DNA of 64,000 bases, taken from NCBI GenBank assembly GCA_016793885.1, contig JAEUHE010000002.1, forward strand, positions 1 to 64,000, written 5' to 3'. The translations under genes were made by a program, and so were the position numbers. Below are positions 24,489 through 64,000 of the stretch, piece by piece (within the stretch, counting starts at the first letter, position 1; every line of letters starts with the position of its first letter). This stretch comes from Verrucomicrobiales bacterium. GTDB taxonomy: Bacteria > Verrucomicrobiota > Verrucomicrobiia > Limisphaerales > UBA11320. The notes beneath the pieces were generated by a model, which saw only the letters and a program-made list of their open reading frames with translations, was not told the DNA's origin and ran no database searches.

Positions 24489-24590
24489 ACTCTTCCTCCG
24501 CGCTCTCCGCGCCTCCGCGAGAAAAGATCCCTCCCCTGACTCCAAAGGACAGCCGAAATCGCTCGCGGAGGCGCGGAGAGGAAAGAGTTC
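24489..24590. repeat. Inverted-repeat element, MITE-like
   Basis: 24503-24521 and 24562-24580 are perfect 19-base reverse complements (CTCTCCGCGCCTCCGCGAG) separated by 40 bases. The symmetry extends imperfectly outwards (AACTCTT at 24489 against AAGAGTT at 24584-24590). The element sits 80 bases after the phosphatase stop. Its size and symmetry suit a small non-autonomous mobile or REP-like repeat. On transcription it would form a strong hairpin and could end or protect the upstream mRNA. The remaining intergenic bases (24410-24806) hold no gene. Confidence 0.7.
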
Positions 24591-45522: not shown

Positions 45523-47169
45523 ATGTCTGAGGAATTGCCCATGCCCATCACGAATCCGATCCTGTCCGGCTTCAATCCCGACCCGTCGATCCTCCGGGTC
45601 GGGGATGACTACTACATCGCCACTTCGACCTTTGAATGGTTCCCCGGCGTGCAGATCCATCACTCGCGCGACCTCGTCCACTGGCGATTGCTGACACGGC
45701 CACTCCGGCGCGCAAGCCAGCTCGACATGCTCGGCGATCCGGATTCGTGCGGGGTCTGGGCGCCGTGCCTGAGCTACGCGGATGGGTTATTCTGGTTGAT
45801 CTACACCGATGTGAAGCGCTTCGGTCGTGCCAGCGTGGCTGGCGCCAGCGGCTCCTCGATGCGGGATTTCCACAACTACCTCGTGACCTGTCCGACGATT
45901 GACGGCGACTGGTCCGACCCCGTTTATCTCAACAGCAGTGGCTTTGATCCCTCGCTGTTCCACGAGGACAACGGCAGGAAGTATTTGCTGAACATGCTCT
46001 GGGATCATCGGCCGGGGCACAATCGCTTCGCTGGAATCGTGCTCCAGGAATACTCCGTCACGGAGCGCCGACTCATCGGTGAGCGCGTGAACATCTTCAA
46101 AGGAACCGAACTCGGCTTCACCGAGGCCCCGCATCTCTACAAACGCGACGGCTGGTATTACCTCCTCACCGCCGAAGGGGGCACCAACTGGAACCACGCG
46201 GTCACCATGGCCCGCTCTCGCACGCTCACTGGCCCGTACGAGCTGCACCCAGACACCTACATCCTGAGCGCGAGACAGCGCCCCGACTGCGAGTTGCAAC
46301 GCGCCGGGCACGCCAGTCTCGTCGAAACACAAACGGGCGAAACCTACCTGGCTTATCTCGTCGGTCGACCGCTGCGCAACCGAGGTCGCTGCACGCTCGG
46401 CCGCGAAACCGCGATTCAAAAGATGGCCTGGGGTGAGGACGGTTGGCTACGGACGCTGGATGGGCAAGGGATCCCGTCCATCAAGACGCCGGCCCCGGCT
46501 CTGCCGCCCCAGCCGTTCCCGTCCGGCCTGGTGCGGGAGCATTTCGACACGCCGAACCTCCCACTCGACTTCCAATGGCCCCGGACGCCGTATCCGGAGG
46601 AGATCTTCAGCCTCACGGCACGGCCGGGATTTTTGCGCCTGTTCGGTCGCGAGACGCTGGGCAGCCTTTACCGCCAGGCCCTGGTCGCACGGCGTCAACA
46701 GTCTCATTGCTTCAGCGCATCGACGGTCATCGAGTTCGAGCCCGACCACTTCCAACAACTCGCCGGCCTGATCTGCTATTACAACAGCACCAAGTTCCAC
46801 TACCTCTACCTCTCGCACGACGAAGCCATCGGAAAGCATCTGCGCGTGATGTCCTGCGCCCCGGACTCGATGCAGGCCGACGCCTTCACTCCACCGATTG
46901 CCATCCCCGCCGGCAAGCCCGTGCACCTGCGTGTGGAGGTTGATTTCGAGCGGATGCGCCTTGGATACCGTGTGGATGCCAGGGACGCAGATTGGCGATG
47001 GCTGCCGCAGCAGTTCGATGCCAGCATTCTGTCCGACGAATGCCTCGCTCCAGGCCAGGCCCATTTCACCGGCGCGTTCGTCGGCATGGCGTGCCAGGAC
47101 ATCTCAGGCATGCGTAGGCCCGCGGACTTCGACTTTTTCGAGTATGTGGAGCGGGAGTTCAAGGACTGA
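45523..47169 (+). CDS. GH43 beta-xylosidase/arabinofuranosidase
   Basis: A 548-residue protein without a signal peptide, so cytoplasmic. The five-bladed propeller shows NPILSGFNPDPSILRVGDDY with base Asp20, STFEWFPGVQIHHSRDLVHW, SSGFDPSLFHEDNGRKYLL (Asp142) and the acid Glu201 in GFTEAPHLYKRDGWYYLL. The C-terminal part (about 330-548) is the usual beta-sandwich domain of GH43 xylosidases (HCFSASTVIEFEP, GLICYYNSTKFHYLYLSHD). It should split imported xylo-oligosaccharides into xylose, with arabinofuranosidase activity possible. ATG 45541 is an alternative start. Its last 11 bases overlap the 3' end of the convergent surface-protein gene. Confidence 0.94.
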   Translation: MSEELPMPITNPILSGFNPDPSILRVGDDYYIATSTFEWFPGVQIHHSRDLVHWRLLTRPLRRASQLDMLGDPDSCGVWAPCLSYADGLFWLIYTDVKRFGRASVAGASGSSMRDFHNYLVTCPTIDGDWSDPVYLNSSGFDPSLFHEDNGRKYLLNMLWDHRPGHNRFAGIVLQEYSVTERRLIGERVNIFKGTELGFTEAPHLYKRDGWYYLLTAEGGTNWNHAVTMARSRTLTGPYELHPDTYILSARQRPDCELQRAGHASLVETQTGETYLAYLVGRPLRNRGRCTLGRETAIQKMAWGEDGWLRTLDGQGIPSIKTPAPALPPQPFPSGLVREHFDTPNLPLDFQWPRTPYPEEIFSLTARPGFLRLFGRETLGSLYRQALVARRQQSHCFSASTVIEFEPDHFQQLAGLICYYNSTKFHYLYLSHDEAIGKHLRVMSCAPDSMQADAFTPPIAIPAGKPVHLRVEVDFERMRLGYRVDARDADWRWLPQQFDASILSDECLAPGQAHFTGAFVGMACQDISGMRRPADFDFFEYVEREFKD

Positions 47170-50100
47170 TCACGCGGAAGTAACGTTGCGGATAGAGGTT
47201 CAGGCCAGCCTCTGCGTAGGGTTCTGTAAATTGATAGATGCCCGAGACGTCGGCTGAGTTGGTCAGCACAGGCATCCATGGGATGGGCGCGGTCAGTGTC
47301 GGCGTTGCTTCGAGGATGTAGCTGACAAAAGGCACGCCCTGACCGGTGATGACCATCTTCTCACCGCCGTCCGGCGCGATGCCGGTGATCTTCGAGCCGG
47401 GGATTTCCACGCGGCGCAGAACAACATCGTTGCCGTCGCCGCCCTGATATGTGATGTGGTAGGTGCTCGAGCCGCTGCCCACGAAGGAGCCTTCGGTGGT
47501 GTTGAGGAAGAACCCGTTGATCGGACCTGGGCTGGTCTTCTCCAGAATCAGAAATGTGTCGTTCGTGGTGGGAAGAAAGCCAACGGTGAAGAACAGGCGC
47601 GTGTTGCTCAGGATGACGTTCCCATCGACGCGAAGCTGGTCGTACTGCGCAATGGGTATCGTGCCATTGATCTCGATGCGCAGGTCGGAATCGGTTAGGT
47701 CGGCGTGGCCGGCGACCGTGAGCCGTCCGGGGCTGGCACCCGGCGAGACGGTTCCGCCCGGGTAAGGGAAAATCGCAGGGACGCTGCCATTGCCGGCGAG
47801 CACGCCAAAGGGCGTGTTGGTGATGGTAACGAGCGGACGGTTTAGCTGCACAAGCAAGCTGGAGGCGATGCTGCCGTTAACGACCAGCGTGCCTTCGGTG
47901 GCACCGGATGCGCCGGTGTAGGTATGCGTGCCGTTTAGGATGAGGGTACCCGCCCCGATCTTCTCGAAACCGCCTGCACCGCTGATCACGCCGTCGAAGG
48001 TGGTGGAGAGATCGTTACGTCCTACGATGAGGCCACTAGTTGGATTGCTAAAGTCGATGTTACCGCTGCCTTCGATGGAGCCGACCATGTCCAGGAAGCC
48101 ATCGAGGATCAACTGACCGCTGCCGTTGATCAGCACGCGAGTTCCGTTGTTAATCTCATCGCCCAACCCGCGCACGATCACCCGGTCAGTATTCGGGAGA
48201 CCCACGTTGTCGCCGATGACGAGTGTACTGGCGTTGATGGCCTCGCTCGTGGGTTTGTCGAGAATCAGGTCACCGTCGGCCACGGTGGTGAGCCCAGCGA
48301 AGGTGTTGGCCGGGAGCCCGTTCAGGATGAGGTGGCCGGGGCCGACTTTCCGCAAGCCACCAGGGCCGCTGATCGCGCCACCAAGGGAGAGCGTGCGGGG
48401 AATGCTCAAGACGGAGATGGTGTTCTCCGGCGCCAGCAAGGTGATCGGACCATTCCATTGGTTGAGGCCGGTAAAATTCTCCAGCACGACCGGCGAGCCA
48501 GGGCCGGTGCTGTTCAGCGTTAACGGTTCCATCGTGACGATGTTGCCTCCCGAAGGCTGGAGAAAAATCCTCGCTCCGTTGGTGCCGGACACGGTAGTGC
48601 CTGCGTCGGACGAACCGAGCGCACTGGAGTGCGAAAGAATCAGCGTGCCGTCAGTGACGGAAACGGGGCCAGTGAAGGTGTTCGCGCCGGTCAGTTGTAG
48701 GGGACCATTCCAGCCCTTGTTAAAGCCTGCGGGCGCACCGCCGTCGCTGATCTCGGCCGTGATGAGCAGACTGAGGTTATTCACATCACCTTCGGTGTAG
48801 GCACTGATGCTACGGGTGGCGCCGCCCAGCGAAAGGTGTCCGTGGATACGTGCAGGTTCGGTCTCGAAGAAAGAGCGAATGGAACTGAGGCTGTCGTTGA
48901 GCGTGAGTATCCCGGCACCCGTTTCGATGGTGCTGCCGCCACGAACCGTGAGCCTGCCAACCGTGTCGTTGAAGCCGGCAAGATCAAGCACACCACCAGT
49001 ATGGAGTTCGACGTGAGTGGTGTCGGCTATCTGGTTGTTCTTAATCATCCAAGCTCGAGTGGAGCCCTGCGAGCCGAAGAGGGAGAACCAATATCCCGAA
49101 ATCACGGGCTGGTGGAACACGCCGTCCATGATGAAGTTACCCTCAAACACAGCACTGTATCCCTCATAGCTATTCGTGTAGGGAGTCTTGAACTGCAGCG
49201 TGCCGGGGCCTCGCTTGCTCCATCCGTCGGGGCCGGAGATTTGACCGACGACGGTGAGGGTGGCGTTTGTCTCGACACCGAAGTAAAGGTGCTGCTCAAG
49301 CCGGAGATTGCCGAGCCAGGAAACGTTCCCCTTGAGTAGGCGCAAGTGAGAGTCGGGAGTCGGATTGCCGAGGTCCGCTGCTTCAATGGACTCAGGAATC
49401 CCAAAACTGGTCGGAGGCTCTAGGTAGAGCGTTCCACCCAGAAAGCGGGTGACGCCGTTGGTGGTCCCGAGGGCGTGGCCATCGCTGATCGTGATGGTGC
49501 CGCCTTTGATCTCCACGTCGCCCGAGAAGATATTCGACTGGCTGAGGAAAAGATCGCCGCGGTTTGTTTTGATGAGGTCGGCAGTACTGACACCGGAAAT
49601 CTGTGCACTAATGTTTAATTGCGCCCCGGATGCAACATCCACGATCTGCGCGGCATCGCCGCGCGAGCCAAGATTCAGCCGGCCAGCGATGGTCGACTCC
49701 TTGCTCACGACGCTCGGCACGGAAGCGTAGATGCCGCCGTCGACATTGAGGATGCCCGCGCCGGTGGTGACAGTGCCGCCACGCAGGTTGAGCGTGCCAA
49801 TGGTGTCGTCATCGCCACTGAGTTCGAGGCTGCCGGTGGCGAGGACCGAAACGATCGAAGTGTCAGCGATTTGATGATCACGGTCCAACACAGCAATGTC
49901 GCCAATGACGGTGCTGGCGAAGTCACCGATGACGAGGTTCCCGGCGATGGCCGTGGTGCCGACGAGGGTAAGGCCACCCGAAAGATTGTAGCGGTTCAGG
50001 CGGAGGACTCCGCGGCCAACGGTGGTAGTACCTGTGAACGTGTTTGCGCCGAGCCCTTCGAACCAGAGGCCGCCAGGGTTATTTTTGAACACGCCGCCCG

Positions 50101-50620
50101 TGCCGGCGATAGTCCCGGCGATGGTGATGTCCCCGGGACCTTCTGGCACCAGCGTTCGGGATGTGAGATTGATGTCGCCGTTCACCGTCAAACTGGCCCC
50201 GGCGTCAACAACCTCGAATGAAATGCTCGTTTCAGGCCCTCCGAACGTGATGTCCAAGTCGATGATGTGGTTGCCTGCAGGGTTGCCTACGTTGACCGAG
50301 TTGGTGATCGTGACGCGATTGCCGCGCAGGCGGTAGCCTCCGGTACCAAAGCAGTTGATGACCGAGAACGTCGTTCCTGCAGCGAAATTATTCGTGTTGC
50401 TCGTCTTGCGCGCACCGGATTCCACGAACTGGAGAATGTCCCCGGGCGAAGGCGCGACGCCACCCTGCCAGTTCCCGCCCGTGGTCCAGTTGCCGCTGGT
50501 GGCGGAGGCACCGGTCCAGAAGCGAGTGGCGGCGAAAGCGGACTGAGCCATGCAGAGGACAAGAAGTGAAAGAACCGCAGTGGCGGCGCGGCGGGCGACG
50601 GTACTACTGGAGATGTTCAT
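47159..50620 (-). CDS. Secreted autotransporter-associated beta-strand repeat protein
   Basis: A 1153-residue protein. ATG 50620 is chosen for the signal peptide (MNISSSTVARRAATAVLSLL, ending AFAA). It begins with ATRFWTGASATSGNWTTGGN, a typical start of these repeat proteins. Repeats marked by a G-GTL-L-G--TY-G-T motif occur near residues 173, 467, 635, 752 and 880, for example FEKIGAGTLILNGTHTYTGA. There is no outer-membrane beta-barrel at the C-terminus. Instead it ends with a short module (VSYILEATPTLTAPIPWMPV, YPQRYFRVISP) also seen in the large proteins at 18161 and 55158. It is likely a surface or secreted beta-solenoid; its function is unknown. Confidence 0.88.
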   Translation of the reverse strand: MNISSSTVARRAATAVLSLLVLCMAQSAFAATRFWTGASATSGNWTTGGNWQGGVAPSPGDILQFVESGARKTSNTNNFAAGTTFSVINCFGTGGYRLRGNRVTITNSVNVGNPAGNHIIDLDITFGGPETSISFEVVDAGASLTVNGDINLTSRTLVPEGPGDITIAGTIAGTGGVFKNNPGGLWFEGLGANTFTGTTTVGRGVLRLNRYNLSGGLTLVGTTAIAGNLVIGDFASTVIGDIAVLDRDHQIADTSIVSVLATGSLELSGDDDTIGTLNLRGGTVTTGAGILNVDGGIYASVPSVVSKESTIAGRLNLGSRGDAAQIVDVASGAQLNISAQISGVSTADLIKTNRGDLFLSQSNIFSGDVEIKGGTITISDGHALGTTNGVTRFLGGTLYLEPPTSFGIPESIEAADLGNPTPDSHLRLLKGNVSWLGNLRLEQHLYFGVETNATLTVVGQISGPDGWSKRGPGTLQFKTPYTNSYEGYSAVFEGNFIMDGVFHQPVISGYWFSLFGSQGSTRAWMIKNNQIADTTHVELHTGGVLDLAGFNDTVGRLTVRGGSTIETGAGILTLNDSLSSIRSFFETEPARIHGHLSLGGATRSISAYTEGDVNNLSLLITAEISDGGAPAGFNKGWNGPLQLTGANTFTGPVSVTDGTLILSHSSALGSSDAGTTVSGTNGARIFLQPSGGNIVTMEPLTLNSTGPGSPVVLENFTGLNQWNGPITLLAPENTISVLSIPRTLSLGGAISGPGGLRKVGPGHLILNGLPANTFAGLTTVADGDLILDKPTSEAINASTLVIGDNVGLPNTDRVIVRGLGDEINNGTRVLINGSGQLILDGFLDMVGSIEGSGNIDFSNPTSGLIVGRNDLSTTFDGVISGAGGFEKIGAGTLILNGTHTYTGASGATEGTLVVNGSIASSLLVQLNRPLVTITNTPFGVLAGNGSVPAIFPYPGGTVSPGASPGRLTVAGHADLTDSDLRIEINGTIPIAQYDQLRVDGNVILSNTRLFFTVGFLPTTNDTFLILEKTSPGPINGFFLNTTEGSFVGSGSSTYHITYQGGDGNDVVLRRVEIPGSKITGIAPDGGEKMVITGQGVPFVSYILEATPTLTAPIPWMPVLTNSADVSGIYQFTEPYAEAGLNLYPQRYFRVISP

Positions 50621-50850
50621 GAAGGGGACGAGACTGCTGGGCGAGTCTTTGATAAGAATTATGTGGAACAACATTACAAGCAATTCCGGAACGAGCCCTC
50701 TGCCGCGGACCGGCACGAGGAGATCCTTGGCGATCCAAGTAGATCGTCGGAATTCCAGCATCATAGTGGCGATAAACGCGCCAAATGCAAGGCTAAGGAT
50801 GAGATGAGACTCGGAACGCTGCTCGCTCGCGACCAAGGTGAGAGAGACTT

Positions 50851-51381
50851 TTTAGCCGCAAAAAACACAAGAAGACGAAAGAGGAGGACAACGGCACGAA
50901 TCACTGAGTCCCAATCCCATTCGGTTTTTTCGTCGTCTTTCGCTTTTTGCGGCTAAACGTCTCCTCCCCTGATCCGCGGCTACGTTGGCCCGGCGGCACC
51001 CCACCGCCCAGAACCGGACACCCAGCTGCGGAGGCGGAATGAACCAATTACCGAGCAGGCTGCTTTTAGCCGCAAAAAACAAAAAATGACGAAAGAGGGG
51101 GACAACGCAATGAATCACTGAGTCCCAATCCCATTCGGTTTTTTCGCCGTCTTTCGCTTTTTGCGGCTAAAAGTCCCCTCCCCATTCCGCGGTCCCGCTG
51201 GCCTGACAACACACCGCGCAGAACCGAACATCCAGCTGCGGAGGACGAATGCCCCAATTACCGAGAGAGCTGCATTTAGCCGCAAGAAACAAAAGAAGAC
51301 GAAAGAGGAAGACAACGGCACGAATTACCAAGTCCCAATCCCATTCGGTTTTTTCGTCGTCTTTCGCTTTTTGCGGCTAAA
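50851..51381. repeat. Tandem repeat block 1 (three ~210-bp units with inverted-repeat cores)
   Basis: Three cores of 107 bases lie at 50851-50957, 51065-51171 and 51275-51381, a period of 214 and 210 bases. Each core starts TTTAGCCGCAAAAAAC and ends CTTTCGCTTTTTGCGGCTAA; the ends are reverse complements that continue imperfectly inwards (AAGACGAAAGAG against TTCGTCGTCTTTCG). The spacers are also conserved and carry CCAGCTGCGGAGG. The first core begins 230 bases before the start of the surface-protein gene. The rest of 50621-51502 shows no gene. Short open frames through the cores are judged non-coding. Confidence 0.9.
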
Positions 51382-51502
51382 CGTCCCAAGGTAGGGCAAA
51401 GTTATTTTCGTATGATCTACTTGTCGCTGTCCGCGCCCCTGGCGACTGCAGGATAGGATTCACAGGCGGATTAGGATACTTTGCTCTTTTCATGGAGACG
51501 GG

Positions 51503-52897
51503 GTGCACCTAGGTTGCCAGTCAGTGAAGACCTTGACCTCCAACGCAGCTTCCAGGGCGCCACGCCCAACTAGGCGACTCCGCAGTATTCCTGGTCTGGT
51601 CCTGGCGGTATCCGGGCTCCTGGCCCTTTTTCCTCCCAATCTCCAAGCGCAGGAGACTCCAGTCGCGTTCGTCGGTGCCCAAATACTCCCGATTCAAGGT
51701 CCGCCGCTAGAAGCAGGGGTAATGGTGGTGCATCACGGTCGGATTGTCTTTATCGGGCCCAAAGGCAGCGTCGTGCCAGAAGGTGCGACGATTCGCAATG
51801 TCGAGGGGAAGATTCTCATGCCCGGACTCATTGACACCCACAGCCATATTGGAAGTCCGGAAGGTGGCGACTCCTCGGCTCCCATTCAGCCAGACACCCG
51901 GGTTCTGGACTCAATCGACGTTCGCGATGCGAGCCTGCAAAAGGCCCAAGCGGGCGGAATCACCACGGTGAACATCATGCCAGGCTCCGGCCATCTGATC
52001 AGCGGGCAGACGCTCTATCTCAAGTTGCGCGAAGGTTTGGTTATCAACGAGTTGTTCATCACCAATGACTCGGGCAAAGCGGTTGGGGGTCTCAAAATGG
52101 CGAACGGCACGAATTCCCGCCGTGACCCTCCTTTCCCCGGCACGCGAGCGAAGTCCGCCGCCTTGGTGCGGGAGAAGTTCGTTGCCGCGCAGGAATATCG
52201 CGAAAAGATCCTGAGAGCGAAGGGCGACGCAGAAAAAATGCCCTCGCGTGACCTGGCTTTGGAAACGTTGGTTGAGGTTCTGGAGGGCCGCCGGGTGGTG
52301 CACCATCACACCCATCGTCATGACGACATTCTGACCGTGCTTCGGCTGCAAAAGGAATTCGGATTCCGGGTGGTGCTTCATCATGTGAGCGACGCCTGGA
52401 AGGTGGCCAAGGAGATCGCCCTGGCCGGTGCCTCCTGCTCGATCATTGTCATCGACAGCCCCGGGGGAAAACTGGAGGCGAAGGATATAGACTGGAAGAA
52501 TGGCGCCGCGTTGGAACAGGCCGGGGCTCGCATCGGCTTTCATACCGATGATCCAGTCACCGATTCTCGACTCTTTCTGCGGTCGGCGGCCCTCTCGGTT
52601 CGGGCGGGGATGTCCCGCGAGACCGCCCTTCGCGGGTTGACGCTCGCAGGCGCGGAGATGCTGGATCTTCAGGCTCGAGTGGGCTCCTTGGAGATCGGCA
52701 AGGACGCCGACTTCATCGTGTTGTCCGGCGACCCGCTGAGCGTTTACACCCATGTGCTGGAGACCTGGGTTGAAGGCAAGAAAGTGTTCGATCGAACCGA
52801 TCCGAAGGATCGACTCTGGTCAACGGGAGGACTGGGAGCGGGAAATCCTCGAGCAGCTCATCTCTGCTGCTTTGGAACATGGGAGGAGGCGCGATGA
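51503..52897 (+). CDS. Secreted amidohydrolase (imidazolonepropionase-like), catalytic copy
   Basis: A 464-residue protein from GTG 51503 (a GGAG lies five bases upstream; GTG 51524 is an in-frame alternative). An export signal covers about residues 25-50 (GLVLAVSGLLALFPPNLQAQ). The amidohydrolase core begins VAFVGAQILPIQGPPLEAGV. The metal motif PGLIDTHSH (His113, His115) is present, followed by HHHTHRHDDI, VVLHHVSDAW and FHTDDPVTDSR with a likely Asp. The family hydrolyses cyclic amides or dipeptide-like bonds; the substrate is unknown. It overlaps the next, related gene by 4 bases and is flanked on both sides by the tandem-repeat blocks. Confidence 0.87.
   Translation: MHLGCQSVKTLTSNAASRAPRPTRRLRSIPGLVLAVSGLLALFPPNLQAQETPVAFVGAQILPIQGPPLEAGVMVVHHGRIVFIGPKGSVVPEGATIRNVEGKILMPGLIDTHSHIGSPEGGDSSAPIQPDTRVLDSIDVRDASLQKAQAGGITTVNIMPGSGHLISGQTLYLKLREGLVINELFITNDSGKAVGGLKMANGTNSRRDPPFPGTRAKSAALVREKFVAAQEYREKILRAKGDAEKMPSRDLALETLVEVLEGRRVVHHHTHRHDDILTVLRLQKEFGFRVVLHHVSDAWKVAKEIALAGASCSIIVIDSPGGKLEAKDIDWKNGAALEQAGARIGFHTDDPVTDSRLFLRSAALSVRAGMSRETALRGLTLAGAEMLDLQARVGSLEIGKDADFIVLSGDPLSVYTHVLETWVEGKKVFDRTDPKDRLWSTGGLGAGNPRAAHLCCFGTWEEAR
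52881..52888 (+). promoter_or_regulatory. Strong ribosome binding site of the second amidohydrolase
   Basis: GGGAGGAGG-type sequence (52881-52889) ends four bases before ATG 52894. It fixes that start over the in-frame ATG at 52879 and is unusual here, since most genes in the window lack such a site. Confidence 0.7.
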
Positions 52898-54120
52898 ACC
52901 GTGTTTGGATCTCGACATTCACGCTCTGGATGGGCTGCCTGCTGCAATCTGGACAGGCGGCCGAAAACCTCGCCATCCATGGCGAGACCGTTCACACCAT
53001 GGCCGGCCCTCCGCTCAAGGACGGGGTCGTTTTGGTTCAGGACGGCAAAATCACCTCCGTCGGTGCGGCGGCAAGCATGCGCATCCCGGACGGATTCAAA
53101 AGGCTGCAGGCACGAGTCGTGACCCCCGGTCTGATTGACGCGCGCACGGTGGTCGGACTCTCGGGGATCCTGAATCAACCTCACGACCAGGAGCAGATGG
53201 AAAGGTCCGCTCCCGTGCAGCCGGAGTTGCGCGCCATCGATGCCTACAACTCGCGCGATGACTTGGTGGATTACGTCCGGAGCTTCGGCGTGACCACACT
53301 CCATACCGGTCATGCCCCAGGCTCGGTAATCTCCGGTCAGACCATGGTGGTGAAAACGTATCCTCCTAGTCTGGATCAGGCCCTGATTCTCCCTGAGTCA
53401 ATGATCGCAGCCACTTTGGGCGGCGGGTCGACGAGCGGCGAGAAGGGAAAGTCGCCCGGGACGCGGGCCAAAGCCATGGCGATGCTCCGGGCGGAGTTGC
53501 TGAAAGCTCAAGACTATGTTCGAAAGCAGGCGGTTCCCGACCTCGAGAAACGCCCCGCCAGGGATCTTCACCTGGAGACCTTGGGCAGGGCGCTGTCGGG
53601 AAAGCAGCCCTTGTTAATCACCGTGCACCGGCATCAGGACATCCTGGCCGCCCTGCGCCTAGCGGACGAGTTCAAGCTCAAGATCGTTCTGGATGGGGTT
53701 GCGGATGCCCCTCTAGTCATCGATGCGATCAAAGCCAGCGGGTTCCCCGTGGTCCTGCATCCAACCCAGTTTCGTTCCAGCGGAGAAGCGGAGAACTTGA
53801 GCATGGAGACGGCCTCCAAGCTTCAGGCCGCCGGCATTTCCTTCGCCCTTCAGAGCGGCTTCGAAACCTACGTCCCCAAAACGCGAATCGTGCTCCTGGA
53901 AGCCGCAGTGGCAGCGGCGAACGGCTTAACCTTCGATCAGGCCCTGGCATCGATCACGATCTCGGCCGCTAAGGTGTTGGGTTTAGAGCAGCGCCTCGGC
54001 TCCCTGGAGCCAGGAAAGGATGCCGACCTCGCGCTGTACGACGGGGATCCGTTTGAATATACCACGCATTGCATCGCGGTGATCGTCTCAGGTGTGCAGA
54101 CCGACGCTCGGCCGCGCTAG
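52894..54120 (+). CDS. Secreted amidohydrolase-like paralog with degenerate metal site
   Basis: A 408-residue protein with a signal peptide (MNRVWISTFTLWMGCLLQSG). It follows the upstream gene in order: LAIHGETVHTMAGPPLKDGV, VVTPGLIDARTVVG, DDLVDYVRSFGVTTLHTGHA, then GSVISGQTMVVK, GTRAKAMAMLR and ARDLHLETLGRALSGKQPL. The HxH metal motif is replaced by DART, and the late Asp region (HTDDP in the first gene) is LQSGFETY here. TVHRHQDI is kept. It therefore looks non-catalytic, perhaps a partner subunit of the first protein. Start and stop overlap the upstream gene by 4 bases (ATGA), with a strong ribosome binding site. Confidence 0.85.
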   Translation: MNRVWISTFTLWMGCLLQSGQAAENLAIHGETVHTMAGPPLKDGVVLVQDGKITSVGAAASMRIPDGFKRLQARVVTPGLIDARTVVGLSGILNQPHDQEQMERSAPVQPELRAIDAYNSRDDLVDYVRSFGVTTLHTGHAPGSVISGQTMVVKTYPPSLDQALILPESMIAATLGGGSTSGEKGKSPGTRAKAMAMLRAELLKAQDYVRKQAVPDLEKRPARDLHLETLGRALSGKQPLLITVHRHQDILAALRLADEFKLKIVLDGVADAPLVIDAIKASGFPVVLHPTQFRSSGEAENLSMETASKLQAAGISFALQSGFETYVPKTRIVLLEAAVAAANGLTFDQALASITISAAKVLGLEQRLGSLEPGKDADLALYDGDPFEYTTHCIAVIVSGVQTDARPR

Positions 54121-54166
54121 TAAGCCGTCAGACTGCTCGCTCGCGGGAACGTGCTGAGGAGCTCTC

Positions 54167-55114
54167 TAGCCGCAAAAAACAAAAGAAGACGAAAGAGGGG
54201 GACAACGGCACGAATCACTAAGTCCCAATCCCATTCGGTTTTTTCGTCGTCTTTCGCTTTTTGCGGCTACACGTCCCCTCCCCATTCCGCGGTCCCGTTG
54301 AACTCACAGCACACACCGCGCACAACCGGACATCCAGCTGCGGAGGCTGAATGACCCAATTTCCGAGCAGGCTGCTTTTAGCCGCAAAAAACAAAAAATG
54401 ACGAAAGAGGGGGACAACGGAATGAATCACTGAGTCCCAATCCCCTTCGGTTTTTTCGTCGTCTTTCGCTTTTTGCGGCTAAACGTCCCCTCCCCAGTCC
54501 GCGGTCACGTTGAACTCACAGCACACACCGCGCACAACCGGACATCCAGCTGCGGAGGCGTGATGACCCAATTTCCGAGCAGGTTGCTTTTAGCCGCAAA
54601 AAACAAAAGAAGACGAAAGAGCAGGACAACGGCACGAATCACTAAGTCCCAATCCCATTCGGTTTTTTCGTCGTCTTTCGCTTTTTGCGGCTAAACGTCC
54701 CTCCCCAGTCCGCGGTCACGTTGAACTCACAGCACACACCGCGCACAACCGGACATCCAGCTGCGGAGGCTGAATGACCCAATTACCAAGCAGGCTGGTT
54801 TTAGCCGCAAAAAACAAAAAATGACGAAAGAGGGGGACAACGGAATGAATCACTGAGTCCCAATCCCCTTCGGTTTTTTCGTCGTCTTTCGCTTTTTGCG
54901 GCTAAACGTCCCTCCCCATTCCGCGGTCCCGTTGAACTCACAGCACACACCGCGCAGAACCGGACATCCAACTGCGGAGGCTGAATGACCCGATTACCGA
55001 GGCTGCTTTTAGCCGCAAAAAACAAAAAATGACGAAAGAGGGGGACAACGGAATGAATCACTGAGTCCCAATCCCCTTCGGTTTTTTCGTCGTCTTTCGC
55101 TTTTTGCGGCTAAA
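54167..55114. repeat. Tandem repeat block 2 (five ~210-bp units with inverted-repeat cores)
   Basis: Cores lie at 54167-54270, 54377-54483, 54589-54695, 54800-54905 and 55008-55114, a period of 208-212 bases. They are near-identical to each other and to block 1 and differ at scattered positions (for example AAAAGAAGACGAAAG against AAAAAATGACGAAAG). These two core variants partly alternate in both blocks. The conserved spacers contain CAGCACACACCGCGCA and CATCCAGCTGCGGAGG. The block starts 46 bases after the second amidohydrolase and ends 43 bases from the stop of the giant CotH gene. No gene was found within 54121-55157. Confidence 0.92.
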
Positions 55115-55157
55115 CGTCCCCTCCCCGGTCCGCGGTCACGTTGGCCCGGCGGAGAAG

Positions 55158-58100
55158 TCAGGGTCGACGCGGGGTCAGCACGCGATAGAGCCTGCGCGAC
55201 GCGGGTTCCATGTCCTTGATCGAGTTCATCGTGTTGGTGGAGCGCGCCACCCAGTCCTCAAGCTTGAACCAGTTACCCGTACCCAAGGTATCGCTAAATT
55301 CCACGGTGTAGGTCCGGTTCGACACCGCATCGAACCACAGATTCATCCCGGTCGAATCCAGAAAGCCGTTCAAAAGCAGCCGGTCCCGCGCGTCCCGCGG
55401 ATGTGTGCCCGCCTCATACTCGCTCCTGTTGGGCATGCGGTCTTCATCTACATCCTGCAGCGCGTCGCCAGAGTTGTTCCGGTTGAAACTGAATGCCTCC
55501 TCCCACACATCCGGCATCCCGTCGTCATCCGTGTCGACGAGAACCGTGACCTCTGCCGCCGCTGGTGCAAGTCTAGCAGCGGGGTTGGGCACGCTGCGGA
55601 TCTCCACCCGATATCCAGCTGTGTCTCCGGGCTGAACATTGTCCAGCCGCAGGAATGCCCGGGTCTCGTTGATGGTTCCCGAGCCGATGGAGGCGTCGTT
55701 ACGAAACCACTCCACCTGGAAAGGAGGCGGCCCACCCGCCCATTCCGCGCTGAGCGTGACCGACCCGCCCTGCACGGCGGTTTGACCCACAGGCGCCTGC
55801 AGAAGGGCAAGCGGATTGATCACAGTGAGCACTGCGATGGCGCTCTGGATGGATCCCTCGGCGTCGGTAAGCTCCACCCGATAGTTGCCCTCGTTCGATG
55901 GACCCACTGGCCCGACGGTCAGGCTCGCGTTGGTGGCAGCCGGGATATCCGCATCGTTGAAACGCCATCGATAATGGATGGTGCTGCTGCTGGTAGCTTG
56001 CACTCGGAATATCACCAGGGTTCCGGCGATGGCGTTGGTATCGGCCGGTTGCTGGGTGATGATTGCAGGAACCCGCACGGTGAGGATCGCTTCGGCGCTG
56101 AGGGTGGAGCCGTTGGGGTTTGTCACCTCCACTCGATACGTCCCCGCCTGTGAAGGTTGGACGGAGGGCAGGCTGAGCACGGAATTGGTGGCACCAGGAA
56201 TCGCGCTGGCACCGAACCTCCATTGATAGGTGATGGGCTCGTCGCCTTCCGCCGTGACGGTGAACACGGCCGGTGTGTTGGCCAGGGGGTTCTGGCTAAC
56301 GGGTTGGCCGGTGATGACGGGCGGGCTCAGCACGGTGAGGGTCGCTTCGGCGCTGGTCAGCGAGGTGTTGTCGTCGAACACCGACACCGAGTAGTTGCCA
56401 GCATCCACGGATTCAACGGGGTTGATGGTGAACGAGCTGTTGGTGGCCCCCCCGATGGGCTGGCTGTTGAAGCGCCATTGGTAGCGCAAGGTGCCCGTGC
56501 CGGCAGCACTGACGGCGAAGGTGACACTGCCTCCGCGGGTTGCGGACAGGCTGCGCGGCTGGTCGATCACCACCAGCGGTTGGCTCACGTTCAACAACAC
56601 CCCAGGGCTCAGCACAAATCCCGCCGCATTGTGCACCACCACGGAATACTCACCGGCCTGCGAAGCCTTCGCGTCGGGGATGAGTCGAGTCGCGTTGGTA
56701 GCATGGGGAATGGAAACACCGTTGACCCGCCATTGGTAGCGAAGCGGACCGGTGCCGTCAGCCGATACACTCAACGTCGCCGAACCGCCGGGTCCAAACT
56801 GAATCGTCGGCCCCGAGATAATGGAGGGGCGCACCAGACGGCTCGCCGCGGATCGCGGATCCGTACCATCGAGGAATTCCTCATAGTTGCTTCGGTTGTC
56901 TGTATCCGCGTCCTGGGCCGCATCCGCCGCGTTCGCATTGCTGAAGCCGTTGGCGGTTTCAAAGGAATCGGGCAGACCATCCCGATCCGTGTCAGTGAAG
57001 CTCGATCCCTGGACATTGGCGCGTCCCGGCGTGGGGTCGGCAGCCTTCCAGTTCACGGGATCGTTTCCATATTCGTGCGGACGACGGCGTTGCAGCGAGG
57101 CGCCGACGCCGTCGGCGCCCGCGGGCCAGGGGTAGGCGTCCCCATACACCACGCGATCCACCAGCAGATAAGGGACTTCGCCTGCCGTGGGACCGATGAG
57201 GGTGGGAGCGTCGGGGCGGGTGAGCTTGAGTTCCTCTGTCCGGTTGTTCAGCTGGCCCGAATAGGGGCCGAGGACCCTGACGTCGGCGGGCAAGCCATAG
57301 CGCGCGCGGAAGGCTGCCAGCGCCGGGGCGTTGGTAAGGGGGTCGAAGCTGACAATGAGCGCATACCCATGGGCCTGGAGGTTGAAGCTGGTCGGGAAGT
57401 CGAAATCGGCGCCCCCCCGCAGCCGCCATGTGTTGGTAGGATAGGCAGGATCGAACAGGTTGATGGATGAATCGGTGAGGTTGTGGATTTCCACAAATTC
57501 GTCGGCGGTGTTGTCGTTGGTGCCGCCGATGGGCAACGGGCGGTACATGATCTCCTGGATCACCACCGGCCCGGTGAGCGGCGCGGCATTGGGTTGTCCC
57601 TGGCCCGTTCGAAACTGCTCAACCGTGCCAGGAGCATCGACCCCAAAGGTGCGCGTAACGAGCGGCGGGAAGTCACGTCCGATGCTCGTCTCGTATCGGC
57701 CGAAGGATACTCCATTGGCGGAAGCGCCGAAGCTGGCCGACGAACGATAGCCCGTGAGGTTGCCTGCTGCGTCGGCTGCCGACAGGTAGATCTGATCCCC
57801 ATTGGCCGAGCTCAGCGAGAAGGGGGAAACCAGGTTGTTGGTATTGAAGTCGATTTCGTAGAACACGCGGTGTCCATAGGCAGGAACCAGAGTGCCATTC
57901 GGGATGCGCCATTTCTTGAAGTCCGCGGCTGAATCGCTGAGGAACCAGCCGCCGATGTGGACGGGCTGAGCGGTGCGGTTGTGGACCTCAACGGCGTCCT
58001 CCCAGGGCGGATCCGTATGGGCCAGCGCTTCATTGATGATGACGGTGCCGAGCGCATCGCCTCCCGTACGACCGGGAGATCCGCCTGCTTCCGGACTCGC

Positions 58101-61100
58101 CCTCCAGTTGGAAGGGTCCGCGGGGTTTCCGGAGGGGTCACGCGATTCCAACGACTGGCCCGTGCCATCCGGTTCCGGCGGCCAGGGCGGCGTGGTTCCG
58201 TAGCTCATGCTAAGAAACACCACACCGTTGGAATCTGCCAGCGAGATCCGCTCGCCGGCGTTGTCGAGGCGTCCTGAAAAGATCCCCGGAGCGATCCTCA
58301 TGCCCGCGGTGCTGTAGCGGGAGGCGAACAGGGCCTGGTTTTTCACCACCACCAGGTGTTCCTTAGCTCCCAGCGTGGTGGGACCAAAGGCGTAGTCGAT
58401 GCCCTCCGTGAATCGCACACCGGTGAGATCCAGAGCTGAGTCCCCGATGTTGAGCAGCTCAATGAACTCGTATTCCGTTCCACCGGGCGGGTTGTACATG
58501 ATCTCCGAGATGCGGAGGCTCTCACGCAGGTCGCTGGTGGCGGATGGGTCGATAAGCATCGCGTAATCGAAAGTGGCCTTGATGCGCTGGGCGGTGTCGG
58601 TGGCCAGGAAGAGGCCCGCCTTGCGGGCTGTGGCGCCGGCGGGAAGACCCGCGGAGTGGACTACTGACCAGACATCATTGAGTTTGTGCTCAAACACCAG
58701 CGAGTTGGCGTCCCGGCGAATCCGGATATCGGCTCTGGCACGCGTGACTGGCGTACCACGCAGGAGAGTGCTAGTGCCTGTCTCGGTGATTCTCCGGACA
58801 TTCAGAGCAGTACCGTCCTCGACGCCCATGGCGTAACGGACGAGGCTTCCGGATTCGTCGAACTCCACCATGGCGCCGGTGATGTAGTCGCCGAAAATAC
58901 GGGAATTCAGCGACACTTCGGTGAGGAACATCCAGTCGGTAAGGGGCGGAACGGTGCGCCACAGGTAGGGGTAGACACGGGGAGCGGGAGCGAGGGGGCG
59001 GGAGCGATCCGCCAGCACCTGCAGGGTAAGCATCCCTGGAACCTCGGTCGTGCTGTAATAGGGGGCGGAGGAGTGGTTGTCCCGCTGGCTGACGTTCTCC
59101 AGGTTCCAGAACCCTTCCAGCCCCGGGTCGGTGAAGGGACTGAATCCGTTGGGCCCGAACACTGCGGCTTGGCGGAGGATGGAGTTCGTGGCACCGCCCG
59201 AGTCGGTGGCCCTGACCGTGAAGCTGTAGATACCGGGACGCGAGAAATAGGCGGTCGCGTTGTCGACGCCCCGCGTGTCGAGTTGCGTGTCGGCCGGATT
59301 CGCGGACCAGGAGAAGGAGAGGGGCTGCGCATCCGGATCGTAACTGCGTGACGCGTCCAGCTCCAGGGAATCGAGAACGGAAACATGCAGCGAACCCGGG
59401 CTGGATTCCAGCGACATGATCGGGGGCGCGTTCCCAGTCTTGTTCACGGTGATCGTGTCGGTGACCAGCACGCGTCCATCGAAATCAAGGCCCTGAACGG
59501 TGATGAGGTTGGCACCGGTGCGGAGAGTAAGGTTGGTGATTGTCCAGATGGAGTCATTGGTCCAAAACGCTCCCGAGTTGGGGTGGCCGGGAGCCTCAAC
59601 CCGGAAGACCCGAAGCGGGCCCGTTCCGGTCAGGTTCAAAGTGTTCGAGGTGACGTTCAAAGGCTGGCCACCATTGGTGGTGATGTCGAAGACAGCAGTC
59701 CGGGCGCTGCCCACGGCGGAATACGCCGGGCTCTGCCTTCCTGAGAACCAGTTCTGATAGTCCGTGGACACTGTGTATTGCGTGCTGGCGTCCTCTTCCG
59801 CCTTCAGCCAGGCGTTCATCCTCGCGGAATTCTGCGCGTAGTTCTCAACCAGGGTGGTGAGAAAATGCCGGAACAGGCGCTGGTTGTAGGAACGCTCGTG
59901 CCAGCCCCGGTAGCCCTGCATTCCATTGTAGAAGGCCTCGCCGGTGTTCTGAAATGCCAGGTCGCTGTCCCAATGAAAGAACATGAACCTGCCGTCCGTC
60001 GGCCTCCGGTAGAGATAGCCGTTCTTCCCCCGGTTCAGCGTGAACGAATCCCAATCGCCAATGTAACCGCGCACCGCCGCCATTTGCATGATCGCCACCG
60101 GATCCAAAACCTGCTCGATCTCGGCCTGGGTGTAGGTCGATGTCACCTTGCGGAACATGCCGATGAGCGCGGAGTAGTCGTATTCGTTCTCGCGGGTGCG
60201 CTTCATCCATTCGGAGTGATAACGGCCTGGGTTGTCCGATCCCTTGTAACTCCAGTCCGCATCCCGCTGGCCGCGACCCCAATCGTCATTGAACCACCAC
60301 TCATCATCGATCCGATACAGCTCCCCCTGGTTCCCATCGGGATAGATGCGGTCGAGCATGTCATTGCCCAACGGCTCCACCTCCTCGCGCAGGGAGGAGC
60401 CCCCATTGTTCACGTTCACCTGGATGAACTCGTTTTCGTTCGCCGGGTGACCGAGGAGGTAGAGCCAGTGGCGAGCGATTCGGTTGTGATGCCGGCTGCC
60501 GCCGCCGGCGTCGTTGTCGTAAGTGAGTTTTTCCTTTCCTCGGAAGAGCTGATCTTTCGGGACCTTGAACTTCCCCCGGCTGAGATCGTTGCCACGCGTC
60601 CACGGACTGCCCCCGTTCCGGATTTCACAATCGTAGACAATCTCACGCTCGTTGATGATGAGCGTCATATTGTAGTAGTGGTTGCTGAGGCGGGGGAAAG
60701 CGTGGCCGTTGGGAGGGGTGGGACCGTCGCCCCCGGCGAGATCTGCAATCGCCAACGAGGGCACGATAAAACGCATCCGTCGCAGGTCGGTCAACTGACT
60801 TGGGTTGTCGATGAGAAAGAGCGCGGGTTTCTCCGGGCCGCGCGGCGGCAGCTGGGTCGATTGCCCGTTGGCTGTGGCCACCACGTAGAACTGTGCGATC
60901 TGTCCCGATGCGGTGTACTCCGTCAGTTGTGCGGTGTAGATGCCATCCCCCGCGACCTCGTCCCCTCCGGAGACTCCGTCATCGGACATCGCGCGCGGGG
61001 TCCAAGACCCTCCGCCGGTGACCTCGTCCAAACGATGGTGCAGCACCACCTGTGGGGCGGGAGCAAACGAAGTGACCTGCGCGGTGATCCGAACCGGCTG

Positions 61101-63974
61101 GCCCGGACTCGGCACCGGAGGGCTGTGAAGGATCCTGTCCACCTGTGCCGCAGGCAGCGGGATGTGGCGTGAATTACGTGCTCCAGGTGTGCCGAGATTG
61201 CGGGGAACGGCCAGGGAGATATCGGTGGCGATGCTGTGGTCCCAGGTTTGAACGATCAGCCGGGAAGCTCCCGCGACCCAGCGCGCCTCAAAGCTCACCT
61301 CGTAGGTGGAGCTCCTGGTGAGCGCGGTGGCGTCGAGTTCCACACGATTGGGACGGTTGTCTCCGTGCCCATCCGCGATGAGATGCATTTCCGCTCCCAG
61401 GAAGCGGCTGGCGAAATGGGTACCCTGAGCCAGCCACCCGCCGGCGCTTAACCCGTTCGTCGACATGCGTGTGCTATTCGCCAGGAGGTTCGCTCCCCCG
61501 CCGTTCAACCGAAGCTGGAGGTTGCGCAGCACCACATGGCTGTCGCCCACCAGATGCAGGTGCAGCTCCTTGTAGTCCGTGGTGGCACCCCCCGTCCGCA
61601 GCTCCTGGTAAGGCGCGGAGTAACGGTAGGTCTGAAACACCGACTTGTTGGTTTCATTGCTGTCCTGCCATGCGGATGCCAGCGCGTTGTCCATCCAGGG
61701 ATTACGCAGTTCCATGCTCGTGCCGTCCCCATTCGCCAGTCGCGGCCAGTTTCCGCCCGGCGAGTATTCCACCTCGTCCGCCAAATTCCCCAAGGCATCC
61801 ACGAGTCGAATTCGCTCTCCATTGTTCGCCAGCCTGCCCTCGAAATTGCCCAGCACTGGGATGCCTCCGTACACCTGCTGCAGCACCGAAGCGTCGGCGG
61901 CGACTACCAGATAGGCGTCGGGAGCGAGCCGTGTGCCGGCTGGAAACGTGAACCCGATGCCATCGGAGAATCGCCATCCGGAAAGGTCCACCGTGGTGGT
62001 CCCGCGGTTGTAAAGCTCAACGAACTCGGCCGACGGTTCATCCGAAGGCGCGTCGTACATCACCTCGTTGATCACGATGTCTGTCGGCCGGACTGGGGCA
62101 TTTGGTCCGTTTCGAGTCGATGAGGGTGTGGCATACCACTCATTCCCACCATTGGGAAACGCCTGGAGTGTGTCGCCTGCCTGCGGGCGCTGAAAAACCT
62201 GGGCACCGAGCACGGTGTTCGAGGCGTTCACAAGATACACCGTGACCTCACCGTCCGAGAGCCGGAAAGCCGAGTTGCGGCTGAGGAATCCGCCAGCCGG
62301 CACGGATCCGGTCAACGGGACACGATCGGTGAGGTCGGATCGCGAGGCCAAGAACAGGCCGTCAACTGAAACCGCAGTGGACGAGGTGTTGTGGAGTTCC
62401 ACCCAGTCGAGGGTGTTGGTGGAGCTGAGGTGAACTTCGTTAAGGCGCACCAGGGCTGCGAGGGCGGAGAGACTGGCGTTGGGAGAGTTGCGGGTGGGGT
62501 CGGCGAAGAGAAACCACGAAGCCCCGCCTGCCGGCTTGCGGCCGAGGGAACGGCCATCGAGCGGCATGGCGGCATCGATGGCATTGAGAATAGTCTGGCC
62601 GTCGGGGGCGACGAGATAGACGCGAACAGGACTCTGGACCGCGAATCCGGATTCCGTAAATCCCAGCGACACGAGTCCGGAGGGAGGGACGATAATGTCC
62701 GCGTTAATCCGGAATTTTGCGAGGTTTCCGGGATCGTCGGTGAGGTGGTGGTTCCTCAGGCTGATGTTGGTTCCACGGGGGTTGTAGATTTCGATAAACC
62801 CGGTTCCTGCGGGTCCGGGCAGGACTTCATTAAGAATGAGGCTGGGCTGCGAAGGTGTGGAGATCTTGAGGCGCGCACCGAACACGATGTCCGAGCTGCC
62901 GGCACCGACTTGGTGGACTTCCACCGCCAGAACATTTTCCCCCTGCCGCAGCGCCGTCCCGGGCACGGTGATCACGTTCGCTTCCTCACTGGCGTCGCCA
63001 ACGGTGCGGTTGGCAGGGGTACCGAATCCGATGGCACCTCCGGGCATGCCCGAGCGTCCGAGTTCCGTGCCGTTGAGATAATACACCGCGCCATCGTCCA
63101 GAATTTGGTCGATCGACAGGGTCACGCCGGTGATCGAGCCATTGTAGGTGAAACGGGTGCGCGCGTAATAGGTGAGCTGGTCGAAATCGGCGAAGGGAGT
63201 GCGGATGCCTGGTGATGGCAGGGCAGCGGTTTCGAATCCGAACAGCCCAGGCCCCTCTGGCCAGGAACTGTCGTCATAGTCAGCGCTGCGCCAGGCGGTG
63301 AGGAGATCGACGTTTTGATCATGGATCCGCCAGGCGTCGCCGTAGTTCACGAACGGAATGCCCTCGTTGAGATTCACCTCGGGACTGGGCACGGGAAATT
63401 CGGGGACGGCAACCGCTTCGGTGCCTGGCGTTCCCAGGCGCTTTGAACTCGCTGTCCAGTTGCGAACGTCGTCAATCAGCCGGTCGGGATTCAGGAGCAC
63501 CAGCGTATGGCCCGCTCCGTCCGCAGCCACCGGCCACCGCCCGCGGTCGGTGTAGGCCACGGTGCACAGCACCACGCCATTCTTGTCCTTCAAGGTGATG
63601 CGTTCTCCAGCGTTATCGAGCGATCCGGACCAGGGTCCCAACACCCGGATGCCCGCCGGGACGCCGTAAGCCGATCGCAGCGTAGCAGGGTCGGCGGAGG
63701 TCAGCAGGATCCGTTCGAACGGTTTCAGGAAAGTCAGGGCAGGATCGGTGGGGTTGAAGGCAGGGAAATCGAGGTCGACACCGTCGCGGAGTCGCCACTC
63801 GGCCATGTCGAACGGAGTGGCGGTGGCGTTCTGCACCTCGATGAACTCCGGGAGTGTACCCGGGGGATGATACATAATCTCGCTAATCACAACCTGTTCG
63901 GCATGGGAGGAGGAGATCAGGAGGGTGGAGGCCAGGCAGAGCCAGGTTATGAGACTGGAACGAGACTGTTTCAT
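55158..63974 (-). CDS. Giant secreted lamin-tail/CotH/Ig-like protein
   Basis: A 2938-residue protein, complete in the window; ATG 63974 gives a signal peptide (MKQSRSSLITWLCLASTLLI). About seven lamin-tail-like domains start with VISEIMYHPPG, LILNEVLPGPAG, VRLNEVHLSS, IVINEVMYDAP, LRISEIMYNPPGG, VIINEALAHTD and VVIQEIMYRPL (near 30, 375, 506, 630, 1818, 1976 and 2136). A CotH-type domain lies at about 1065-1400 with GDWDSFTLNRGKNGYLYRR and FFHWDSDLAF. A PKD-like part follows at 1518. DTDRDGLPDSFE (2325) and DTDDDGMPDVWEE (2811) are calcium-binding-type repeats that frame about five Ig-like domains (2376-2803). The last 60 residues form the module shared with other secreted proteins. CotH proteins can be protein kinases; here the role is unknown. 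Confidence 0.9.
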   Translation of the reverse strand: MKQSRSSLITWLCLASTLLISSSHAEQVVISEIMYHPPGTLPEFIEVQNATATPFDMAEWRLRDGVDLDFPAFNPTDPALTFLKPFERILLTSADPATLRSAYGVPAGIRVLGPWSGSLDNAGERITLKDKNGVVLCTVAYTDRGRWPVAADGAGHTLVLLNPDRLIDDVRNWTASSKRLGTPGTEAVAVPEFPVPSPEVNLNEGIPFVNYGDAWRIHDQNVDLLTAWRSADYDDSSWPEGPGLFGFETAALPSPGIRTPFADFDQLTYYARTRFTYNGSITGVTLSIDQILDDGAVYYLNGTELGRSGMPGGAIGFGTPANRTVGDASEEANVITVPGTALRQGENVLAVEVHQVGAGSSDIVFGARLKISTPSQPSLILNEVLPGPAGTGFIEIYNPRGTNISLRNHHLTDDPGNLAKFRINADIIVPPSGLVSLGFTESGFAVQSPVRVYLVAPDGQTILNAIDAAMPLDGRSLGRKPAGGASWFLFADPTRNSPNASLSALAALVRLNEVHLSSTNTLDWVELHNTSSTAVSVDGLFLASRSDLTDRVPLTGSVPAGGFLSRNSAFRLSDGEVTVYLVNASNTVLGAQVFQRPQAGDTLQAFPNGGNEWYATPSSTRNGPNAPVRPTDIVINEVMYDAPSDEPSAEFVELYNRGTTTVDLSGWRFSDGIGFTFPAGTRLAPDAYLVVAADASVLQQVYGGIPVLGNFEGRLANNGERIRLVDALGNLADEVEYSPGGNWPRLANGDGTSMELRNPWMDNALASAWQDSNETNKSVFQTYRYSAPYQELRTGGATTDYKELHLHLVGDSHVVLRNLQLRLNGGGANLLANSTRMSTNGLSAGGWLAQGTHFASRFLGAEMHLIADGHGDNRPNRVELDATALTRSSTYEVSFEARWVAGASRLIVQTWDHSIATDISLAVPRNLGTPGARNSRHIPLPAAQVDRILHSPPVPSPGQPVRITAQVTSFAPAPQVVLHHRLDEVTGGGSWTPRAMSDDGVSGGDEVAGDGIYTAQLTEYTASGQIAQFYVVATANGQSTQLPPRGPEKPALFLIDNPSQLTDLRRMRFIVPSLAIADLAGGDGPTPPNGHAFPRLSNHYYNMTLIINEREIVYDCEIRNGGSPWTRGNDLSRGKFKVPKDQLFRGKEKLTYDNDAGGGSRHHNRIARHWLYLLGHPANENEFIQVNVNNGGSSLREEVEPLGNDMLDRIYPDGNQGELYRIDDEWWFNDDWGRGQRDADWSYKGSDNPGRYHSEWMKRTRENEYDYSALIGMFRKVTSTYTQAEIEQVLDPVAIMQMAAVRGYIGDWDSFTLNRGKNGYLYRRPTDGRFMFFHWDSDLAFQNTGEAFYNGMQGYRGWHERSYNQRLFRHFLTTLVENYAQNSARMNAWLKAEEDASTQYTVSTDYQNWFSGRQSPAYSAVGSARTAVFDITTNGGQPLNVTSNTLNLTGTGPLRVFRVEAPGHPNSGAFWTNDSIWTITNLTLRTGANLITVQGLDFDGRVLVTDTITVNKTGNAPPIMSLESSPGSLHVSVLDSLELDASRSYDPDAQPLSFSWSANPADTQLDTRGVDNATAYFSRPGIYSFTVRATDSGGATNSILRQAAVFGPNGFSPFTDPGLEGFWNLENVSQRDNHSSAPYYSTTEVPGMLTLQVLADRSRPLAPAPRVYPYLWRTVPPLTDWMFLTEVSLNSRIFGDYITGAMVEFDESGSLVRYAMGVEDGTALNVRRITETGTSTLLRGTPVTRARADIRIRRDANSLVFEHKLNDVWSVVHSAGLPAGATARKAGLFLATDTAQRIKATFDYAMLIDPSATSDLRESLRISEIMYNPPGGTEYEFIELLNIGDSALDLTGVRFTEGIDYAFGPTTLGAKEHLVVVKNQALFASRYSTAGMRIAPGIFSGRLDNAGERISLADSNGVVFLSMSYGTTPPWPPEPDGTGQSLESRDPSGNPADPSNWRASPEAGGSPGRTGGDALGTVIINEALAHTDPPWEDAVEVHNRTAQPVHIGGWFLSDSAADFKKWRIPNGTLVPAYGHRVFYEIDFNTNNLVSPFSLSSANGDQIYLSAADAAGNLTGYRSSASFGASANGVSFGRYETSIGRDFPPLVTRTFGVDAPGTVEQFRTGQGQPNAAPLTGPVVIQEIMYRPLPIGGTNDNTADEFVEIHNLTDSSINLFDPAYPTNTWRLRGGADFDFPTSFNLQAHGYALIVSFDPLTNAPALAAFRARYGLPADVRVLGPYSGQLNNRTEELKLTRPDAPTLIGPTAGEVPYLLVDRVVYGDAYPWPAGADGVGASLQRRRPHEYGNDPVNWKAADPTPGRANVQGSSFTDTDRDGLPDSFETANGFSNANAADAAQDADTDNRSNYEEFLDGTDPRSAASRLVRPSIISGPTIQFGPGGSATLSVSADGTGPLRYQWRVNGVSIPHATNATRLIPDAKASQAGEYSVVVHNAAGFVLSPGVLLNVSQPLVVIDQPRSLSATRGGSVTFAVSAAGTGTLRYQWRFNSQPIGGATNSSFTINPVESVDAGNYSVSVFDDNTSLTSAEATLTVLSPPVITGQPVSQNPLANTPAVFTVTAEGDEPITYQWRFGASAIPGATNSVLSLPSVQPSQAGTYRVEVTNPNGSTLSAEAILTVRVPAIITQQPADTNAIAGTLVIFRVQATSSSTIHYRWRFNDADIPAATNASLTVGPVGPSNEGNYRVELTDAEGSIQSAIAVLTVINPLALLQAPVGQTAVQGGSVTLSAEWAGGPPPFQVEWFRNDASIGSGTINETRAFLRLDNVQPGDTAGYRVEIRSVPNPAARLAPAAAEVTVLVDTDDDGMPDVWEEAFSFNRNNSGDALQDVDEDRMPNRSEYEAGTHPRDARDRLLLNGFLDSTGMNLWFDAVSNRTYTVEFSDTLGTGNWFKLEDWVARSTNTMNSIKDMEPASRRLYRVLTPRRP

Positions 63975-64000
63975 GACTGTTACAACGATCGATGACAAGA

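Follow-up and report, generated by a model that had tools for sequence, protein, structure and literature searches.

The two groups of palindromic repeats that flank a pair of amidohydrolase genes in a 64 000-nt stretch of DNA (the window, located on contig C2 of a draft genome that comprises 8.7 Mb in 274 contigs and is 95.7% complete) raise the question of whether these repeats represent a vehicle for the enclosed genes or a family with a life of its own. With a probability of about 0.7, the repeat cores constitute a lineage-specific, non-coding palindromic family of the MITE/REPIN type, which was dispersed through the genome and then amplified in tandem together with neighbouring DNA. What had the appearance of a gene shuttle would thus be a repeat family that is scattered through the genome and locally amplified in tandem.

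In total, eight palindromic cores of ~107 bp each were identified, three upstream and five downstream of the gene pair, all in the + orientation and with a period of ~212 bp. Block 1 consists of core 1 (type A, 50851-50957), spacer 1 (50958-51064, a unit spacer confined to the five C2 blocks), core 2 (type B, 51065-51171), spacer 2 (51172-51274) and core 3 (type A, 51275-51381), with the array ending 6 bp beyond. Block 2 is composed of core 4 (type A, 54165-54271), spacer 3 (54272-54376), core 5 (type B, 54377-54483), spacer 4 (54484-54588), core 6 (type A, 54589-54695), spacer 5 (54696-54799), core 7 (type B, 54800-54906), spacer 6 (54907-55007) and core 8 (type B, 55008-55114), followed by a truncated spacer (55115-55152) at the right edge of the array; all of these elements, spacers included, are assigned to the + strand. 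The core types therefore read A-B-A in block 1 and A-B-A-B-B in block 2, where the three type B cores (5, 7 and 8) are identical in sequence.

Core-to-core spacing inside the blocks is 208-214, and Tandem Repeats Finder assigned scores of 797 and 1707 to the two arrays. The cores exhibit a mutual identity of 89-100%, while the spacers, at 76-95%, are less conserved. The palindromes are imperfect: in every core, arms of 30-32 nt with 84-90% complementarity enclose 47 nt. Folding of one representative core yielded -24.7 kcal/mol, compared with -11.4 for shuffled sequences (z -5.4). The sequence-only reading of this locus had described eight near-identical 107-base inverted-repeat cores, arranged as tandem arrays of three and five copies on either side of the genes, with two alternating variants and no transposase nearby, and its description was borne out in each of these respects, including coordinates, palindromy and identity. 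The arrays are bordered on one side by a gene on the - strand (47159-50836) for a protein of 1225 aa that contains passenger-associated-transport repeats, and on the other, also on the - strand (55158-63998), by that of a very large secreted-type protein of more than 2946 aa, which continues beyond the end of the window.

Both amidohydrolase genes are located on the + strand. The first (51503-52897, Pfam Amidohydro_3/Amidohydro_1) encodes 464 aa from a GTG, its start codon being uncertain, and is overlapped by the second (52879-54120, 413 aa), a paralogue with 34% identity. The sequence-only reading had viewed the pair as a module that the surrounding arrays could recombine, amplify or excise. 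The repeats are indeed direct, positions 50819-51387 being 88.7% identical to 54133-54701 on the opposite side of the genes, and such an arrangement permits these events. Furthermore, the pair is held by only two of the 19 relatives searched, its flanks show no conservation between any two relatives carrying the unit, and the GxxExxY genes of relatives (see below) are similarly placed between full palindromes. However, the scarcity among relatives and the unconserved flanks indicate that the distribution of the pair is patchy in its own right. The two-gene unit was found in six metagenome-assembled genome (MAG) records, among them the Pedosphaera-like congener G003, further Pedosphaera, one Opitutae and one Planctomycetota, and a search for cores near the pair returned none at any of those loci. 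Conversely, most cores occur away from the pair: 19 other contigs together hold 25 or more full-length cores, in mostly intergenic positions and without the pair, and C2 itself carries three further blocks in other places. Intergenic cores without a link to gene movement, which the sequence-only reading had itself named as evidence against its proposal, are largely what was observed. The cores therefore do not mark mobility of the gene pair; the possibility of recombination between direct repeats stands, while a special link between cores and genes is unsupported, and the mobile-module interpretation is weak and distinctly unlikely to be correct.

A search of the genome for the core, which had been proposed as a check, revealed a genome-wide family that lay beyond the view of the sequence-only reading. 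A covariance model built from 34 core copies detected at least 40 full-length cores on 20 contigs, plus two weaker places, among the 150 of 2487 candidates that were scored, and arm searches added several half copies. The family consensus, TTAGCCGCAA... ...TTGCGGCTAA, is ~105 bp in length, and its insertions throughout the genome appear to lie predominantly in intergenic DNA; of 24 blocks, six overlap a (mechanically defined) ORF of ≥140 aa and the remaining 18 are free of such overlap. Alignment of the 34 copies showed the core ends to be TTAGCCGC/GCGGCTAA, and inspection by eye suggests CGNAA units in the arms, in steps of 9 and 10 bp. An all-against-all comparison of ORFs near cores identified no gene common to many core sites, and no cores were found in the plasmid and phage records searched.

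By blastn, the core was present on many contigs, whereas the C2 spacer was absent outside C2. Contig C2 harbours 15 cores in five blocks within 27 kb (at 50.9, 54.2, 69.7, 74.9 and 77.7 kb), all in a single orientation and each block having the form [core-spacer]n-core. The left edge of each block coincides with a core start, except for a truncated first core at C2:74885, and the right edges lie within ~40 bp of spacer past the last core. On other contigs, arrays of two to three copies were observed with periods of ~144, 190, 350 and 362 and with spacers unrelated to those of C2. The metagenome-type draft and the short, near-identical repeats could suggest an assembly artefact, and array copy number could be miscounted; since substitutions distinguish most copies, spacers differ by 5-24% and other contigs carry arrays with other periods, an artefactual origin is highly improbable. 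Separately, a repeated stretch of 146 bp (C2:70285-70430 and C2:77204-77349, 90% identity) is located near two of the core blocks.

Comparison with four congeners returned no core matches in G001-G003, and two weak matches in G004 were shown to represent a different palindrome family. The lack of a counterpart in these four genomes points to a recent expansion, and the core family appears to be lineage-specific within the genomes searched. This distribution also bears on the alternative that the cores act as RNA, being transcribed into long hairpins that bring about termination or stabilisation of transcripts at the ends of genes. Such a role would be in line with the strong hairpin formed by the core, with the greater conservation of arms compared with loops among aligned copies, and with the convergent genes that surround 10 of the 21 classifiable blocks. 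However, tandem and divergent gaps also hold blocks (six and five, respectively, with a further three blocks at edges), no Rfam family exceeded its gathering score (the best match scoring 24.4 bits where 96 would have been required), and three congeners lack the family while the fourth contains only a different palindrome, which indicates that the genus is independent of it. Moreover, the 34 copies exhibited no compensatory base-pair change, a comparison to which near-identical copies lend little power, and this fits copying at the DNA level more than RNA constraint. An RNA function is consequently considered unlikely.

A further alternative is that the cores are ordinary MITEs derived from a DDE-type insertion sequence, which is either missing from this genome or was left out of its assembly. 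Bacterial MITEs are non-coding, measure 70-300 bp with terminal inverted repeats of 15-30 bp and occur in dozens of copies, and the terminal inverted repeats, size and copy number of the cores all fit this description. Unlike MITEs, however, the window family forms arrays with a shared spacer, and neither a cognate insertion sequence nor a target-site duplication was found, the latter being invisible in the aligned flanks of 25 copies, for which there was no empty site for comparison. The arm search of the draft genome identified a single pair of inverted arms a few kb apart, at C250:13694-16097, and the only gene between these matching arms encodes an alpha/beta hydrolase. An origin as a DDE-type MITE is thus regarded as unlikely. 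The C250 locus represents a core of the window family whose two parts lie 2.3 kb apart, with one complete alpha/beta-hydrolase-like gene (694 aa) between them.

Other candidate enzymes were sought within the same assembly. None of the six Y1_Tnp loci had arms matching the core, the three GxxExxY genes had arms of other kinds or none, with no TTAGCC arms, and the IVP (PF05635) genes likewise had no TTAGCC arms and did not adjoin cores; an association of the cores with any of these three gene types in their own genome was therefore rejected. The assembly revealed no RAYT gene and no transposase enclosed by matching arms; being a draft of 274 contigs with 95.7% completeness, it may lack a partner gene. 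On either side of the IVP/four-helix-bundle genes at C133 and C14, repeats of 6-7 bp (GAGTTAT, TCGTAA and GATTTTG) form inverted arrays. Inverted short-period repeats flank three of the four PF05635 genes of this genome, a setting comparable to that of 23S rRNA intervening sequences with S23/IVP genes, but they differ from the window cores in sequence and period and do not adjoin them.

Among known systems, REPINs and REP sequences with their RAYT genes (PMC3116915, PMC3733652) resemble the cores in being ~100-bp intergenic two-arm hairpins that are dispersed, mostly between genes. REPINs also form ordered tandem clusters that include flanking DNA, as the core arrays do, and in Pseudomonas fluorescens REPIN clusters are described as tandem repeats that include flanking sequence (PMC3116915). 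In contrast to REPINs, the window cores possess one long stem with TTAGCC ends and no GTAG-type tag, and whereas in the REPIN/RAYT system a protein gene lies between members of the same repeat family, the Y1 transposase genes of this genome lack core-type arms. The repeats of the window are thus a real, recently expanded palindromic family with tandem arrays, of the same kind as REPINs and MITEs but without the enzyme typical of these.

A candidate for such an enzyme is provided by the GxxExxY genes (TIGR04256/PF13366). In this bacterial order, inverted repeats of similar build bracket 29 of 48 GxxExxY genes, compared with none of 60 control places chosen at random in the same genomes (Fisher p = 7e-14); a smaller first set had given 17/29 versus 0/60, and the stricter demand of a complete palindrome on both sides was satisfied at five of 29 loci and at none of 40 controls. 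The arms around the GxxExxY genes of relatives consist of inverted 9-10-bp periodic units, some loci carrying full palindromes on both sides, and in congener G004 the bracketing arms make up eight further palindromes. In the genome under study, one GxxExxY gene (C17:56804-57154) is flanked on either side by tandem palindromes with a spacer common to both sides. This palindrome family (TCGCGGAGRCGCGGAG..., locus C17:56376-57470) comprises 29 palindromes on 25 contigs, two of them at C17 and at least 27 elsewhere, with a near-constant arm step of 66-70 bp. One copy (CTCCGCG... ...CGCGGAG) lies within the window, at 24496-24583.

The encoded proteins retain the residues expected of a nuclease: E29, D69, K81 and Q93 are kept in 21 of 21 aligned GxxExxY proteins, and E79 and Y97 in nearly all. 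The pattern D...ExK...QxxxY is the signature of the RecB/Cas4/lambda-exonuclease group. The closest matches to the predicted GxxExxY structure (pLDDT 95) were Cas4, lambda exonuclease and their relatives, with modest scores (best E 1.4e-3), suggesting a Cas4/lambda-exonuclease-like fold with catalytic residues kept. GxxExxY genes with their palindromes have the architecture of REPtrons with a different enzyme, and these surroundings point to a possible unrecognised way in which such repeats spread. In the non-subscription literature searched, no paper was found that ties GxxExxY proteins to repeats or that describes repeats of this sort in the group.

The window family shares with the GxxExxY-bracketing palindromes imperfect palindromy, many solo copies and tandem palindrome-spacer-palindrome arrays on either side of a gene, and its arms may likewise be of short period. 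It differs in that none of the GxxExxY genes of this genome lies between its copies and in that its arms, with only a looser CGNAA spacing, deviate from the strict arm syntax of those palindromes, CRCNNA repeated; moreover, a GxxExxY gene between copies of the core family was not encountered. The proposed link between the two is consequently by analogy of architecture in the same genome only. A GxxExxY-type PD-(D/E)XK nuclease acting on palindromes would by analogy be the best candidate enzyme, since similarly built palindromes enclose genes of this type, in one instance in this genome as tandem arrays to the left and right of the gene. We tentatively raise the possibility of an undescribed class of repeat system, REPIN/RAYT-like, in which 9-10-bp-periodic palindromes would be dispersed by GxxExxY nucleases encoded between their copies, and of which the window arrays might be a partner-less branch moved in trans. 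GxxExxY proteins form a widespread family without known function, in which the nuclease residues are intact; their genes are enclosed by palindromes that also occur as solo copies throughout the genome. Should the nuclease prove to cut the palindrome that surrounds its gene, a class of repeats would be explained and an uncharacterised family would acquire a function.

Regarding the dispersed, lineage-specific family favoured here, its dispersal, copy number and absence from congeners are direct observations, from which we infer transposition-like copying; the step to transposition is indirect because neither an insertion/empty-site pair nor a target-site duplication was seen. At several sites, a copy and its neighbouring DNA would then have been amplified in tandem to [core + spacer]n + core, with site-specific periods. 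On C2, a single core-spacer-core unit was probably seeded into five neighbouring sites, the amidohydrolase pair lying by chance between two of them, and the dimer-wise alternation of core types suggests later expansion by slippage or unequal exchange. At one locus (L019), several tandem copies of the 9-mer TGCGGCTAA were present directly outside one end of a core (4717-4820), which suggests slippage at the terminal unit. Finally, positions 1-217 of the window are 83% identical to C2:68778-68994, outside the window, and represent another dispersed repeat, distinct from a tRNA.
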